From: a virus
Length of the DNA: 38,263 nt
Reading direction: 5' to 3' (one strand)
Virus record (IMG/VR): IMGVR_UViG_3300021956_000027
Location: 1 to 38,263 of that record
The notes under the pieces were generated by a model, which saw nothing but the letters and a program-made list of their open reading frames with translations, was not told the DNA's origin and did not search any database. Positions 4,871 to 19,285 of the stretch are shown piece by piece. A program made the position numbers and the translations under genes. Position 1 is the stretch's first letter, and each line of letters opens with the position of its first letter.

Positions 4871-6195
4871 TTGTTCATCCTCGTATACGGGTCGTACTCG
4901 TCGGCTGTCCTGCGCACCAGCCGCTCGCGTACTTCGCGTGGCATCTGCTTGCGCACGGGATACGCAAACGTCAGCGCCAGCGCATCGGCGATGTCGGGCG
5001 ACGCGCCACCCTGTAGCCGCTTCTTGATATCGTCCTTCGGCTCCAGCACCTTGCGCCCGACCTGGTCGAACCAGTAGATGGGCGTGGACAGTTCCGCCTT
5101 CAACGCCGTCACGTTGGGGATCGCGCCGCCCTGTGCCAGCCATTCGCGCATCGCCCACCACATCTCGGTGCGACGGTTCACGAACTGGTCGGGCTGCACA
5201 GCCTTGCCGCCGAATGGCACCTCGATTACGTCGTACTCCAATTGGCGCAACCTGTCGATCACACCAGCACCCGCGCCCGCGTCGATGAACACCGCGTCGG
5301 GATCGTGCTGCTCAATCAGGTTGGCGACGCGCGCAGCCAGCTCCATGTTGTCGATGCCGCGATAGACCTCGGGCGTGAACGCCTGCAACCCCCGCCGGCG
5401 GATCACCACGCTGCGGTCATCGCCGAATCGCGCCGGATCCACCCCGACGATGAGCGGGGTTTCCATCACATCCTTGTCTGTGTACACGCGCTGCGCCGCC
5501 GCCTCGACCTCGGACAGACCGATCAACTGATCGTCGCCGGCTGCGCTGAAGTCGCACAGGTATTCGCGAGCAAACGCCTGGTCAGGCATGTCGCGCTTCA
5601 GGCGCTCGACCTCGTCCGCCTCGATGGCGTGCGTGTCGTACACGGTGTAGCGCGCTGCGTGCCAATCCGGCAATCCCGTCGCACGGAAATACAGTTCGCT
5701 GAACAGGTTGAGGCCCGCCGGCGTGCCGATGAACATCGCCCAGCCACGGCGGTCGGACAACGCGGGCTGCACGATGTCGTTCCAAACCTCGGGCTTGATC
5801 TGCGCGACCTCGTCAATCACGACGCCGTCGAGCCGCACGCCGCGCATGGCATCCGGGTTGTCGCCGCCGAAGATGCGGATGGTCGATCCGTTGTGCCTGA
5901 AATGCACGGACAGGTCGCCCTCGTTGATGTCAACACCGCCCGATGACAGCAGCGGGATCAGTTTCTGTTTTAGACGCGCCCAGGCAATTGCCTTGCCCTG
6001 CTTTAGCAAGGGGGCGATGTACACAAACAACCCGAGTTCCCGCTGGCAACGCAATGCCTTGTCGATCAATTCCATCAGCGCCAGTTCCGTCTTGCCGGCG
6101 CGACGGTGCAGCGCCAGCACGGTGAACCGCCGCTTGCGCTGATGGCATTCGCGCTGCCACGGACGCGGGGAATAGTCAAGACCTATCGCTGTCAT
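4867..6195 (-). CDS. terL: Terminase large subunit (packaging ATPase/nuclease)
   Basis: A 442-aa packaging motor. ATPase domain: Walker A LHRRAGKTELA near residue 30, Walker B GVVIDEVA near 125, and coupling motif GTPAG near 160. Nuclease domain (RNase H-like): VGVDPARFGDD near 250, VFIDAGAGAG near 300, and a C-terminal SPDIADALAL near 410 supplying the last acidic residue. It cuts concatemers and pumps DNA through the portal. The start overlaps TerS by 20 bases and its stop overlaps the GNAT start. Full length for the family. The packaging type (cos or headful) cannot be read here. Confidence 0.96.
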   Translation of the reverse strand: MTAIGLDYSPRPWQRECHQRKRRFTVLALHRRAGKTELALMELIDKALRCQRELGLFVYIAPLLKQGKAIAWARLKQKLIPLLSSGGVDINEGDLSVHFRHNGSTIRIFGGDNPDAMRGVRLDGVVIDEVAQIKPEVWNDIVQPALSDRRGWAMFIGTPAGLNLFSELYFRATGLPDWHAARYTVYDTHAIEADEVERLKRDMPDQAFAREYLCDFSAAGDDQLIGLSEVEAAAQRVYTDKDVMETPLIVGVDPARFGDDRSVVIRRRGLQAFTPEVYRGIDNMELAARVANLIEQHDPDAVFIDAGAGAGVIDRLRQLEYDVIEVPFGGKAVQPDQFVNRRTEMWWAMREWLAQGGAIPNVTALKAELSTPIYWFDQVGRKVLEPKDDIKKRLQGGASPDIADALALTFAYPVRKQMPREVRERLVRRTADEYDPYTRMNK

Positions 6196-6667
6196 CAGGC
6201 GGCACTCCCGTCACCACGGAGATTGACACACCGCCGGAATGCTCGACAGCGGCGCGAGTCCCGTACTTGGCTGGGTTCCAGCAAGCGAGCAGCTTCAGGC
6301 GCGTGTCCACGCGAAGGCGATGCCATTGCACCGCACCCGGATCTATGCGCGTGTTCCCGGCTGCGTCCGTGTAAGTCATCGGCATCGACTCGGCAAGGCG
6401 CGCCGTGTCCTCGGCAATGACATCGCAGCCTCTATCGCGCGCGCGCGCGAGGCGTTCGGCAAATTGCTTGTCCTTCTCCGCCCAATCGTAAACCGTTGTC
6501 CTGCCTGCCTTGCCTGGAATCCTGCACCATTCCGTGAGCGGCTTGCCCTGTGCGATCCATTCGCAGACTTCGTCGGCGAGGGCGGCGGGGACAGGGGCAG
6601 GCGGTCGGCCGCGCTTGCGTGCGGGCGTTGCTACTTGGATCGCTTTTTCCGCAGGATCAGGTGCCAC
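6176..6667 (-). CDS. terS: Terminase small subunit
   Basis: A 163-aa DNA-recognition subunit of the packaging enzyme. After a basic, Pro-rich N-terminus (ARKRGRPPAPVP) comes a helix-turn-helix with EWIAQGKPLTEWCRIP and RTTVYDWAEKDKQFAERL, the pattern of the phage small terminase (homeodomain-like) family. It then has a helical oligomerisation region ending WNPAKYG. The start is GTG at 6667, well spaced from AGAGGA. The first 37 bases overlap the end of the 56-aa gene upstream and the last 20 overlap TerL, so the three are translationally linked. Confidence 0.93.
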   Translation of the reverse strand: MAPDPAEKAIQVATPARKRGRPPAPVPAALADEVCEWIAQGKPLTEWCRIPGKAGRTTVYDWAEKDKQFAERLARARDRGCDVIAEDTARLAESMPMTYTDAAGNTRIDPGAVQWHRLRVDTRLKLLACWNPAKYGTRAAVEHSGGVSISVVTGVPPDDSDRS

Positions 6668-10862: not shown

Positions 10863-11663
10863 TTACTCCGTGCAATCGCAGGGCATTGAATCTTCGACCA
10901 TGCATCCAAACAGCTTGCCCTGCACGGTTAGTTGCGTTCGCATTTGTTTGATGGTTGGACGGTCAAATCGAAATCGATGCCCTGTCATCTCTTCCATTTC
11001 AATCCACCAATCGGCCAAGTCCGGACGCGCTTCTAACACTCCCTGAAGTCGCGGCATTGACTTCAAAAAACACAGGTCACAATTGCCGAAGTATTTTTGA
11101 TCGTGCGGCCAAGGAAGATCAAAATCGCACCGCGCCCAAAATTGCAAGACATCTGCTTCTGTTGCTCCGGCATCAGCCAATGGAATAGCAACATCCCGGT
11201 CGGTGTTTCCGCGAATCCTGCTCACGCGCCTTGGTTCATCAGCACGAATCCCAAGAACGGCCACGAAGTCTGAAAGCCCAAGAGATTGAAGATATTTTTC
11301 CATCGGCTTCACCTTCAAATCGCTTGTGCAGAATCGCATTGGTGGAGTTGGCAATCGCTGCTTGCTGATAATCAAATCTTTGAAGTGTTGCCCAGTTCGA
11401 TCCGCTGAATCAAAATCCACCTTGGCCCATTTTGGTGCTTCGCGTCGATATTCGATCCAAGTGACCGGACACCATCGCGTTTCGACTTCATGCACAAAAC
11501 GCAGGGTTGCCTCATGCTCGCGCCCGGTGTTGGCAAACAACACATGGCCACCCTCCGGAAGCTTTCCGCCCCATGCATCAAGCACTTGATGCAACAGGTA
11601 ACCGCTCGTCCGCCCACCGCTGAATGAAATATAGAACGGGGGTTCGACTTTATACGGATTCAT
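10863..11663 (-). CDS. PP-loop enzyme, PAPS-reductase-like family
   Basis: A 266-aa protein with the PP-loop ATP-binding motif FSGGRTSGYLL (about residue 14-24), then HVLFANTGREHEATL, RFCTSDLKVKPMEKYL near 130, and GNCDLCFLKS near 205, plus WIEMEEMTGHRF. This is the phage branch of the phosphoadenosine phosphosulfate reductase superfamily, whose members activate a substrate with ATP. True sulfate assimilation is unlikely in a phage; nucleobase, tRNA or backbone modification (DndC is a relative) is more plausible. It lies in one operon with a cytosine methyltransferase and a resolvase, and its start overlaps the 62-aa gene stop (ATGA). The two Cys pairs could bind a metal. Confidence 0.85.
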   Translation of the reverse strand: MNPYKVEPPFYISFSGGRTSGYLLHQVLDAWGGKLPEGGHVLFANTGREHEATLRFVHEVETRWCPVTWIEYRREAPKWAKVDFDSADRTGQHFKDLIISKQRLPTPPMRFCTSDLKVKPMEKYLQSLGLSDFVAVLGIRADEPRRVSRIRGNTDRDVAIPLADAGATEADVLQFWARCDFDLPWPHDQKYFGNCDLCFLKSMPRLQGVLEARPDLADWWIEMEEMTGHRFRFDRPTIKQMRTQLTVQGKLFGCMVEDSMPCDCTE

Positions 11664-16629: not shown

Positions 16630-16657
16630 TTGACTTGCCTTTACGGATCGCTATACT
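16630..16657 (+). promoter_or_regulatory. Rightward sigma70-type promoter for the nuclease gene and RNA region
   Basis: Plus strand TTGACT (16630-16635), 16-base spacer, TATACT (16652-16657), with a start expected near 16664. Each hexamer differs from consensus at one position. It is the only good rightward promoter noticed. It leaves a leader of about 95 bases before the nuclease start. Confidence 0.75.
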
Positions 16658-16663
16658 GCCCGT

Positions 16664-16676
16664 ACCCCTATGGGGT
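16664..16676. promoter_or_regulatory. Operator candidate at the rightward start site
   Basis: ACCCC-TAT-GGGGT is a perfect inverted repeat centred on the predicted start of the rightward transcript, as expected for a repressor site. The divergent layout and the nearby winged-helix genes make autoregulation possible. Confidence 0.4.
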
Positions 16677-16759
16677 GGGGTGGCTACTGCTGCCCCTTAC
16701 TTGCCCCCGGAAGCACGGCGCGTTGAACCTCGGTTCCGCGCCGTGTTTGTTGGATGCTC

Positions 16760-17245
16760 ATGCGCGTGACCTTGACCGAACCCGAGTTCCGGATCTGCCG
16801 ATGGCTGGCGACACAGCGGCATTCGGGCGCCCGCGCAGCTGGCGTGGCTGACCAACAGATGGGACCGCAATCCGCCGAGCAAACCGACCTCGATGGAATC
16901 GGTGGAGAGTTCGCATTCTGCAAGGCTGCGAACCTGTACCCCGACATGACTATTGGCGCACGCGCTGGGGGATTCGATGCCCAGCTGCACGGCATGTCCG
17001 TCGATGTGAAGACAACCCGGTACGAAAGCGGCAAGTTGCTCGCAACGCTTGGCAAGTCAACTGCAAGCGCCGACATCTATGTGCTGGTGGTCGGCACGAT
17101 TCCCGAGTACCGAATCGCTGGCTGGGTTCACGGTGTCACCTTGATTCATCCCCGCAACATCCGCGACCTGGGACGCGGACCCGGCTATGCCCTAGACCAG
17201 CGTGACCTGCTTCCGGCTAGGTTGCTGTTGCGCACGGGTACATGA
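16760..17245 (+). CDS. PD-(D/E)XK-type nuclease-fold protein
   Basis: A 161-aa protein, the only convincing plus-strand gene. ATG 16760 (MRVTLTEPEF) has GGA at a better distance than ATG 16754. The core reads GIGGEFAFCKAANLYPD (Glu of helix 1), GGFDAQLHGMSVDVKTTRY (Asp, then Asp-x-Lys on the next strand) and ADIYVLVVGTIPEYRIAGW. This is the order of catalytic residues in PD-(D/E)XK nucleases. The C-terminus has HPRNIRDLGRGPGYALDQRD, a pattern I recall from many small uncharacterised phage proteins. DNA cleavage is inferred. Partner options are the Bet annealing protein, which lacks an exonuclease, or host-DNA degradation. The structured RNA region follows without an intervening terminator. 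Confidence 0.8.
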   Translation: MRVTLTEPEFRICRWLATQRHSGARAAGVADQQMGPQSAEQTDLDGIGGEFAFCKAANLYPDMTIGARAGGFDAQLHGMSVDVKTTRYESGKLLATLGKSTASADIYVLVVGTIPEYRIAGWVHGVTLIHPRNIRDLGRGPGYALDQRDLLPARLLLRTGT

Positions 17246-17780
17246 ACGTGGAACCACCGTGGGGGACTTTACCCCCATGACCCCGAGGGGCATCTTTGGG
17301 TTAGATCAACGGTGGTTCCCGGTGCGCTTGCATTCTGACCGGGCGGCGGTTAGGATGCGAGGTGCCTATCCTGCGCGCTCGTATCCTAGCGCAACTGTCG
17401 GAGTACGGCAAGGGCTGCGGCCCGTGGATACTGCAACTGTTCCCGGCACAGTCGGGGAACATGGTTTCGACGCGGCTCCTGACCCTAGGCCGCGCCACCG
17501 AAAGGTGCGCTCCCCCACGATGGAAGCGGCTGGCAACCTCCAGCGAAATGGTGCAATTCGTGGCTCAACCGACGCGCGGCTCCGCATGGGCTGGTTGATG
17601 TGGCCCCGCAAGGGGTCACTCCCTCTGCGCTCACCACACGGACTGAATGCGAAGCCTGGACGGTCAGCCCGTCTGTGCCTTCATGCCTTCAAAGAACAGA
17701 ATCAAAACCGCCCAGCGGAAGAGTCCCGTAGGGAAATGCCTTTGTTCAGCGTTCCCGGCTAGACAACGCTCGTTTTTTTT
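17246..17780 (+). ncRNA. Structured non-coding RNA candidate downstream of the nuclease gene
   Basis: About 530 bases without a convincing gene but dense in stems. GGAACCACCGT (17250-17260) pairs perfectly with 17309-17319, enclosing two hairpins (GGGGG/CCCCC at 17261-17276; ATG-CCC/GGG-CAT at 17277-17293). A 13-bp stem joins 17349-17361 and 17378-17390 with two G-U pairs. Further hairpins are GGGC-UGCG-GCCC at 17412-17423 (UNCG loop), CACC-GAAA-GGTG at 17496-17507, GCTGG/CCAGC at 17529-17544 and TCAACC/GGTTGA at 17565-17598. An 8-bp stem with GCAA loop lies at 17600-17619, and GACGG/CCGTC at 17659-17673. The wobble pairs and tetraloops are valid only for plus-strand RNA. A terminator ends it. 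Class unknown; the exact 5' end (primary or processed) is not visible. Confidence 0.6.
17748..17780 (+). terminator. Intrinsic terminator of the rightward transcript
   Basis: AGCGTT (17748-17753) pairs with AACGCT (17765-17770) around an 11-base loop, followed after CG by eight T (17773-17780). It ends the nuclease/RNA transcript and faces the leftward terminator 20 bases on. Confidence 0.75.
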
Positions 17781-17796: not shown

Positions 17797-17840
17797 AAAA
17801 ACACGACCGCCGCTGCGCATCGGACGCAACGGCGGCGTGT
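17797..17840 (-). terminator. Intrinsic terminator of the late leftward operon
   Basis: On the minus strand a 16-bp stem (17840-17825 with 17817-17801, one bulge at 17806 and one G-U pair valid only on this strand) closes a 7-base loop and is followed by TTTTT. It lies 19 bases past the last membrane-peptide gene. Confidence 0.88.
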
Positions 17841-18094: not shown

Positions 18095-18364
18095 TCACGG
18101 GTTTGAGTCTGCGATCCTGCGGTAGCCGAGCCGCCACAGCAATCGCGTGATGTCCGTGGCGGTCATTGCCACGGTTTCCTCATCCAAGGGCGTGCAGGCG
18201 TGCAACGCTTCGTGGATGATTGTGTCCAGCATATCGCGTTCGGACTGCTTGGCACGCACACGGATCAACCGCCCCTCGGCATTTCCAGGGTCCGTGCAAT
18301 CACCAAAGTCCTCCATGTTGGCGAACTTGAACTGCCACATCTTGCCGCCCAGCTTGCATTGCAT
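18095..18364 (-). CDS. Small HExxH putative metallopeptidase (89 aa)
   Basis: An 89-aa protein from ATG 18364 with GAGGTATCACC upstream. Residues about 48-56 are IIHEALHAC, a zinc-protease HExxH motif, followed by TPLDEETVAMTATDITRLLW with an acidic residue that could be the third zinc ligand. The N-terminal half is strand-rich (KMWQFKFANMEDFGDC). Such minimal zincins recur in phages; I cannot tell SprT-like from ImmA-like types. It lies between the phosphoesterase and the two membrane peptides, so lysis or host-protein cleavage are both possible. Confidence 0.7.
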   Translation of the reverse strand: MQCKLGGKMWQFKFANMEDFGDCTDPGNAEGRLIRVRAKQSERDMLDTIIHEALHACTPLDEETVAMTATDITRLLWRLGYRRIADSNP

Positions 18365-18373
18365 GGTGATACC

Positions 18374-19285
18374 TCAATGAGCAAGGTGGAAATCCGCAAC
18401 CAACGTGTATCGCGTTTGATTCTTGCCGTTTGCTTGCTTGACACTCCGGCGTTCAAAGCGCAACCGCATCCACACCGCACCCATCACCTCGGGCGTGCGT
18501 CCCTGTTCAACATGGAAACCGGCGAACCCATCATCGAACTCATCCTTGTAGGTTCCGGTGCGAACATGCCATTGAATGTCTGAAACGATGCGCGGCCCCT
18601 TCTGATCCATGACGAGGCGCTCGCGCGCAAGCGGCATCACCCATTGCTTGTGGACATGCCCGGACACCACGATGTCCGCGTCCGGCGTGACCGCCGCAGC
18701 CCGCCGCACCTTGAGCGTGTCGAAAGACATCAGCGCGGCCCCGCCCGAGCCGTGGAAATACTTCAGCGTCAGCGTGTGCCGTTCGTTGCCGCGCCTGGTG
18801 ATGAACCGCACCCAACCACCGTAGCCTCCGGAGTACACCTTGTGACCTGACTGCTGGCTCATGCGTTCGCACAGGCGCTCGGTCAGGTCTGTCTCGCAGT
18901 TTTTCAGGATCGCGGTTTCATGGTTTCCCCTGCCGATCAACACGAAGTTCTTGGCGTATGGGGAATAGAAATCCGATGCGTGGCGGACGATGCTGTCAAG
19001 GTAATCCGCTGCCAGCGCATCCTCTTCACGCACGCTGTTCTTGCTGCGGCGTGGATCAAACTTGCCCTGCATCGCGCAAAACAGGTCGCCAACATCAATG
19101 ATGCCGGCGTTGCGCGCAACGGCTTCATCGAGATGCTTGCGCTCCAGGTCATGCCTTGCATGGGGGTTGTCGTGATGCCTGTCACCTGACAGCAAATACC
19201 AGTATTCCCCGTGCTTCCCATCATCCTCCAGCTCGACGGTGTGGATGTTGCGATGGTGCTGGACCATTCGGAATGGAAGCGTCAT
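18374..19285 (-). CDS. Calcineurin-like metallophosphoesterase
   Basis: A 303-aa protein with the metal-ligand set of calcineurin-type phosphoesterases: WYLLSGDRHHDNP (Asp-x-His) near residue 35, IIDVGDLFC (Gly-Asp) near 60, LIGRGNHE near 115 and VVSGHVHKQW near 210. These bind two metals and hydrolyse phosphoester bonds. The substrate (nucleotide, DNA end or protein) is not visible. Its start overlaps the lipoprotein stop (ATGA), placing an enzyme with probable nucleic-acid role inside the lysis region, which is unusual but seen in other podoviruses. Confidence 0.9.
   Translation of the reverse strand: MTLPFRMVQHHRNIHTVELEDDGKHGEYWYLLSGDRHHDNPHARHDLERKHLDEAVARNAGIIDVGDLFCAMQGKFDPRRSKNSVREEDALAADYLDSIVRHASDFYSPYAKNFVLIGRGNHETAILKNCETDLTERLCERMSQQSGHKVYSGGYGGWVRFITRRGNERHTLTLKYFHGSGGAALMSFDTLKVRRAAAVTPDADIVVSGHVHKQWVMPLARERLVMDQKGPRIVSDIQWHVRTGTYKDEFDDGFAGFHVEQGRTPEVMGAVWMRLRFERRSVKQANGKNQTRYTLVADFHLAH

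Follow-up and report, generated by a model that had tools for sequence, protein, structure and literature searches.

Genes and signals at the locus

The stretch analysed here (the window; an IMG/VR record of 38 kb, 38,263 nt) carries genes for portal, terminase, tail, and capsid proteins of the Bordetella BPP-1/epsilon15 group. The main genes examined that have family matches are all on the minus strand, except for a DUF5843 gene (16754-17245). We predict a stand-alone phage gene for a plus-strand RNA of ~284 nt (window 17363-17646), supported by comparison with related viruses, whose family is not in Rfam. The 5′ end was inferred from the promoter, and the 3′ end is that of the last conserved block, GACUGA. 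A sequence-only reading of the window had proposed a large RNA over 17246-17780; the conserved core is about half that size and has a different, pseudoknotted architecture.

The RNA appears to have its own promoter-like site of the sigma70 type (17328-17356, plus strand), with a −35 box TTGCAT (17328-17333) and, at a spacing of 17, a −10 box TAGGAT (17351-17356). The first T, the A, and the final T of the −10 box are nearly invariant over the 49 members of our alignment A2 (columns 3, 4, and 8). Most members have TTGCAT-16/17-TAnnAT at a fixed distance before the RNA and a few have TTGACA-18-TACCAT; the site keeps its place although the flanks otherwise differ. The mean best promoter score is 7.4, compared with 5.9 in shuffles. 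The boxes in the window score below the threshold of a generic scan, which therefore did not report them, and no such site was seen in L138 or L142. The earlier link of the RNA to a rightward transcript upstream is not supported, given this promoter-like site.

A stem-loop with an 11-bp stem (17250-17319, plus strand) ends 9 nt before the −35 box. The sequence-only reading took this stem (17250-17260 with 17309-17319) to close the RNA. The stem is real, with one compensatory change in the closest relative (L001), but it lies upstream of the promoter and outside the conserved RNA, and is likely a terminator or insulator. Other members have hairpins different from the window's at this position, with weak group support (mean fold z −1.64). 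Past the RNA, we read from the sequence an intrinsic terminator, AGCGTT...AACGCT, with a 6-bp stem followed by T8 (17748-17780, plus strand); its 11-nt loop exceeds the limits of the scanner. As first proposed, the primary transcript of the window could plausibly end here; the terminator is absent in L001 and so is not a family-wide feature. The only terminator found by the scan is that of the leftward genes (17806-17836, minus strand, 13-bp stem), which converges on the RNA gene.

Upstream, window positions 16630-16760 contain a promoter-like pair (TTGACT-16-TATACT), followed by ~100 nt that L001 and the window share without a change, and by a hairpin rich in G and C (GCACGGCGCG...CGCGCCGTG) that has a T-rich tail. 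This may be a second small RNA or the leader of the DUF5843 gene.

On the other side, window positions 18095-19285 (minus strand) encode a small HEXXH-motif protein and a metallophosphoesterase (MPE), a linked pair found beside the RNA in most members. A search of 50,697 isolated phage records gave a single relative of the window MPE. Most members have the RNA between this pair and the small terminase gene, on the terminase strand; the window RNA, like the majority, is past the HEXXH end of the pair, but is inverted. The RNA is convergent with HEXXH/MPE in the window and in L025 (on the same contig as L001), and divergent from MPE in L083, L092, L097, and L098.

We also found an orphan protein of ~150 amino acids with an LWPKW motif beside the RNA in about half of the members (e.g., L045, L090, and L108), in either orientation; it has no Pfam, PHROG, or PADLOC match. 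It was rejected as a partner of the RNA based on its two orientations and its absence from many members. The PD-(D/E)XK gene upstream of the RNA (97% identical in L001) was also rejected, as among the PD-DEXK loci read the RNA is kept beside this gene only in the window and L001. PADLOC reports nothing among the immediate neighbors of the RNA, and the neighboring genes match no known anti-defence family. Elsewhere in the window (10863-11663, minus strand) is a gene for a protein resembling PAPS reductase, which PADLOC matches to SspD (E 3e-16) and which has weak matches to DndC; it may be a gene related to DNA phosphorothioation.

Fold and covariation

Covariation supports a predicted fold with at least nine covarying helices, including three pseudoknots, in the ~284-nt plus-strand RNA. 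The 5′ pseudoknot is of the H type (17376-17431, plus strand); S1 (17376-17379/17388-17391) crosses S2 (17381-17387/17425-17431), and a hairpin, P2 (17412-17423), sits before the last 3′ strand. Its helices (1-3) are 96.6-98.8% paired with nine pairs changed on both sides, and pairs 34-45, 42-85, and 55-81 are significant in a tree-aware test (described below). In L138 and L147, S1 is replaced by a different yet complementary sequence (CAGGU/ACCUG). The UGCG hairpin noted earlier holds as the window's version of P2. We reject a 13-bp stem claimed at 17349-17361/17378-17390: it shares bases with the −10 box and would compete with the covarying pseudoknot at the 5′ end, and it is not conserved.

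The second pseudoknot (17432-17460, plus strand) has P3 (17439-17444/17455-17460) crossed by a 3-bp helix (17432-17434/17446-17448); these helices (4 and 5) are 100% and 99.7% paired, with pairs 91-108 and 100-119 significant. Next is the P4 hairpin (17471-17494, plus strand; 17471-17477/17488-17494), with the near-invariant UGACCCUA in its loop. P4 (helix 6) is 93.3% paired, with five pairs changed on both sides and pair 139-160 significant. The P5 hairpin (helix 7; 17496-17507, plus strand) is 99.0% paired with pair 166-187 significant, and has a GAAA loop in the window and GCAA, GAGA, UUCG, or longer loops elsewhere.

In the third pseudoknot (17511-17563, plus strand; helices 8-10) P6a (17511-17513/17522-17524) crosses P6 (17515-17520/17558-17563), and within it are P7 (17529-17533/17540-17544) and the invariant CAGCGAAAUGGUG. 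Pairs 194-203 and 197-244 are significant, and P6a is weak (76.6% paired, with the outer pair failing in 32 of 49 members). P8 (UCAACC/GGUUGA; 17564-17599, plus strand) surrounds the invariant GGCUCCG...GGGCU. When P8 strands were swapped between members, own strands gave −12.2 and mismatched strands −9.5 kcal/mol, and own strands were better in 30 of 36 cases. P9 (17600-17619, plus strand) is a GUGGCCCC-GCAA-GGGGUCAC hairpin, and of the 11 members folded, most form an equivalent one. The RNA ends in a 3′ block, GCGCUCACCACACGGACUGA (17627-17646, plus strand), in which CACC and CUG are near-invariant in A2. CACCA (17632-17636) may pair with UGGUG (17549-17553) as helix 11, a mostly invariant pairing and hence one that covariation cannot assess.

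We assessed 55 named base pairs in A2, in which a distant clade around L083 is slightly misregistered. The pairs are standard in 94.5% of cells, 32 are changed on both sides, and the covariation score is 0.302; with partners slid by 1-3 columns these values fall to 32-42%, 7-9, and at most 0.062. None of 500 shuffles reached any of five measures for the proposed pairs. Under a tree-aware null, 11 (uniform rates) or 13 (rates kept) of the 55 pairs are significant, compared with none of the 41,561 pairs outside the structure, so there are compensatory changes beyond phylogeny, as in covarying structured noncoding RNAs; these same sequences had in part served to propose the structure. This test is our own implementation after the R-scape idea, and we rely on its two-set form on proposed pairs, as the all-pairs version gives at best E 0.05. 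In each of the three crossings (S1/S2, the 3-bp helix/P3, and P6a/P6) both helices have a significant pair.

Helices of the 49 members contain 40 G-U and 12 A-C cells, which points to the plus strand, as the sequence-only reading had proposed. The 535-nt stretch of that reading folds better than shuffles (z −2.81 on the plus strand and −1.80 on the minus strand), and the conserved RNA alone has z −0.20; the evidence is therefore covariation and not fold stability. Minimum-free-energy folds miss the pseudoknots and were discarded as misleading. Two hairpins of the earlier reading, GAAA and GCAA, correspond to the conserved P5 and P9. A hairpin at 17659-17675 and a long-range pairing (17450-17456/17754-17760) are absent in L001, and the pairing is not conserved. 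Overall, covariation in relatives lends strong support to the proposal of a plus-strand structured noncoding RNA of unrecognized class, and we regard the predicted gene and fold as very probably real.

Family members and distribution

The RNA family comprises about 95 IMG/VR contigs. We found a 20-base string (17494-17513) in 24 IMG/VR contigs, set in a long conserved stretch, and looser gapped patterns gave 48, 93, and 87 stretches, some of them chance matches. Candidate stretches were scored by profile and then by a covariance model (R1) built from 49 members. By these models 92 loci are members, counting the window and one partial locus (L123). The window matches the profile at 17349-17646 (nhmmer, E 5e-61) and the covariance model with 241.9 bits (cmsearch, E 5e-67). 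A set of 80 loci picked only for a neighboring MPE gene added three contigs (L195, L191, and L196) with further members that are more divergent or cut. In this set, chosen regardless of the RNA, only 10 of the 80 loci have the RNA in the DNA examined per locus. Each of four records checked has one copy.

The covariance model did not find the RNA in ctEw122, DC33, ctQRb9, zth2-2, BPP-1, Jess A (a Caulobacter phage), or epsilon15 (best score 11.6 bits). The first four lack a match despite major capsid proteins 82-86% identical to that of the window, and portals of isolated relatives without the RNA are 73-76% identical. Absence from relatives could partly reflect divergence beyond the reach of the model. 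Searches with the window region or L027 (blastn) gave no match in INPHARED phages or PLSDB plasmids. A gapped motif gave seven matches in GTDB genomes, all chance by profile and model score, and the covariance model found no member in 399 genomes of one phylum, a scan without a positive control; these cellular-genome scans are weak controls.

At 15 of the 92 loci, none of 15 window proteins has a homologue in the DNA examined, some of which is short. The 38-kb contig of L138 encodes a terminase of phrog_38 and a portal of phrog_113 (phrog_2 and phrog_332 in the window), and none of the structural proteins of the window has a homologue there. The same contig has a gene similar to queuine tRNA-ribosyltransferase ~0.8 kb from the RNA (L246 4678-5760).

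L151 (743-1043) and L142 (1630-1910) keep the conserved 3′ domain, and both have a different middle domain; L142 also lacks the 5′ pseudoknot. Variable domains joined to a kept 3′ domain suggest modular evolution. A search for mosaics with the 5′ domain alone gave no further members.

Possible function and relation to known RNAs

We predict that host RNA polymerase transcribes the RNA from its own promoter and that the product would act in trans as a compact protein-binding RNA that engages a host factor as decoy, inhibitor, or scaffold. Its binding surface would consist of the invariant unpaired blocks (UGACCCUA, CAGCGAAAUGGUG, GGCUCCG...GGGCU, and CUCACC). The RNA probably benefits its phages inside the host, and may be an accessory element for host takeover or counter-defence that moves between phages. 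Variation in the downstream gene and orientation argues for action in trans rather than in cis, absence from close relatives and from most MPE loci argues for an accessory role, and the different terminase and portal on the L138 contig suggest mobility. A gene that is single-copy, promoter-driven, orientation-independent, patchy in relatives, and present in a phage with different packaging genes is best taken as a trans-acting accessory element. The suggestion that the RNA is directed at the host comes from its distribution. Host-protein binding is the most likely reading, ranked above packaging, RNA-only assembly, catalysis, and cis regulation, though as a specific mechanism we propose it tentatively, at a little less than probable. 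We are more doubtful of a bolder version, a new class of phage RNA machine, with three pseudoknots in under 300 nt, that would need no phage protein as partner to disable or redirect a protein of the host, such as an immune or RNA-processing factor, and would be traded between unrelated phages. Complementarity to the phage genome, as expected of a guide, is unremarkable (best 13 nt).

The RNA could instead serve in packaging or in the virion, working in the manner of phi29 pRNA at the portal/terminase motor or within the particle. Most members have the gene a short way ahead of those for small terminase, large terminase, and portal (at about 1-3 kb upstream of terminase in ~50 members), a position that fits packaging and counts against the host-directed reading, and compact pseudoknotted RNAs suit ring assemblies. 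In the window, however, the RNA is ~11 kb from the terminase genes, and a normal Sf6-type small terminase gene is present (6176-6667). The RNA is also not tied to one motor lineage, being absent from the relatives with highly similar capsids and portals and present with another terminase and portal type, which makes packaging unlikely.

We consider equally unlikely an orphan ornate RNA that, like GOLLD or ROOL, would homo-oligomerize to form an RNA-only particle for sequestration. The RNA is phage-borne, rich in pseudoknots, and has several invariant unpaired blocks, and its conserved 3′ domain with variable upstream parts is also a feature of GOLLD (PMC12286853). Against this are its size, ~284 nt compared with 659 nt in ROOL env-120 and often >800 nt in GOLLD (PMC12286853), and the lack of an Rfam match or of a tRNA in the window.

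A catalytic RNA (a ribozyme or RNase P-like RNA) is somewhat less likely again. The three covarying pseudoknots surround invariant unpaired residues, an arrangement typical of ribozymes, but no catalogued ribozyme matches at E up to 10, and neither spliced flanks nor the logic of a cleavage site is apparent; the core simply has its own promoter on one side and variable sequence on the 3′ side. A cis-acting leader (riboswitch or attenuator) would fit the promoter and the small LWPKW gene within ~150 nt downstream in about half of the members. Such a leader is expected to have a conserved downstream gene; here neighbors and strands vary, and the next identified gene is on the opposite strand in the window, L025, L090, and L111, so we rate it slightly below catalysis.

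That the element is a conserved coding sequence or DNA element and not an RNA is very improbable: a 186-amino acid frame is open in the window (17202-17762), but frames are broken in relatives and the covariation includes G-U pairs on one strand. The sequence-only reading likewise saw no credible protein, and in agreement the window and L001 differ by indels of 2 nt, 4 nt, and larger across the stretch, each of the six frames stays uninterrupted over the RNA in only 0-12 of 49 members, and lengths occur in all three phases. Missing covariation and a conserved protein frame, either of which would have spoken against a noncoding RNA, were both looked for and neither was seen.

Few complex phage noncoding RNAs have well-supported folds, and their function is mostly unknown. 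This RNA is short enough for direct probing, structure determination, and deletion, and with ~95 virus sequences, varied packaging genes, and presence or absence among close relatives, its function is directly testable.

Rfam 15 has no match anywhere in the window at the gathering threshold and only chance-level matches to the region at E up to 10. The covariance models of GOLLD, ROOL, and OLE have no match to the RNA at E up to 10, so it is none of these, and an ARAGORN scan of the window gave neither a tRNA nor a tmRNA. A description of the RNA was not found in open papers. The tmRNA has multiple H-type pseudoknots, as here, and a tmRNA-like string, GGUUUCGACG, occurs at 17463 in the window; this string is not conserved among members and the reading was rejected, the RNA having no tRNA-like domain and no ARAGORN or Rfam match. 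The phi29-type pRNA is also a compact phage RNA, and most members of our family are near packaging genes; here, related phages lack the RNA, an unrelated motor type has it, and a small terminase is present.

Among known RNAs, GOLLD and ROOL are the most akin in kind; the RNA departs from both in size, context, sequence, and structure. GOLLD is a phage and prophage RNA of unknown function with a complex fold, a conserved 3′ region, and a less conserved 5′ part (PMC12286853). It resembles the window family in its kept 3′ part, variable upstream parts, and elaborate fold, but is about three times as long; the RNA is not in a tRNA array and has no sequence or model match to GOLLD. ROOL is phage-borne with several pseudoknots and without a known partner (PMC12286853), and shares these features with the RNA but not its length. 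Both are often near tRNA genes, unlike the RNA in the window. Unexplained phage RNAs as such are already known; within the scope of open papers and Rfam 15, this family and its predicted fold are new.
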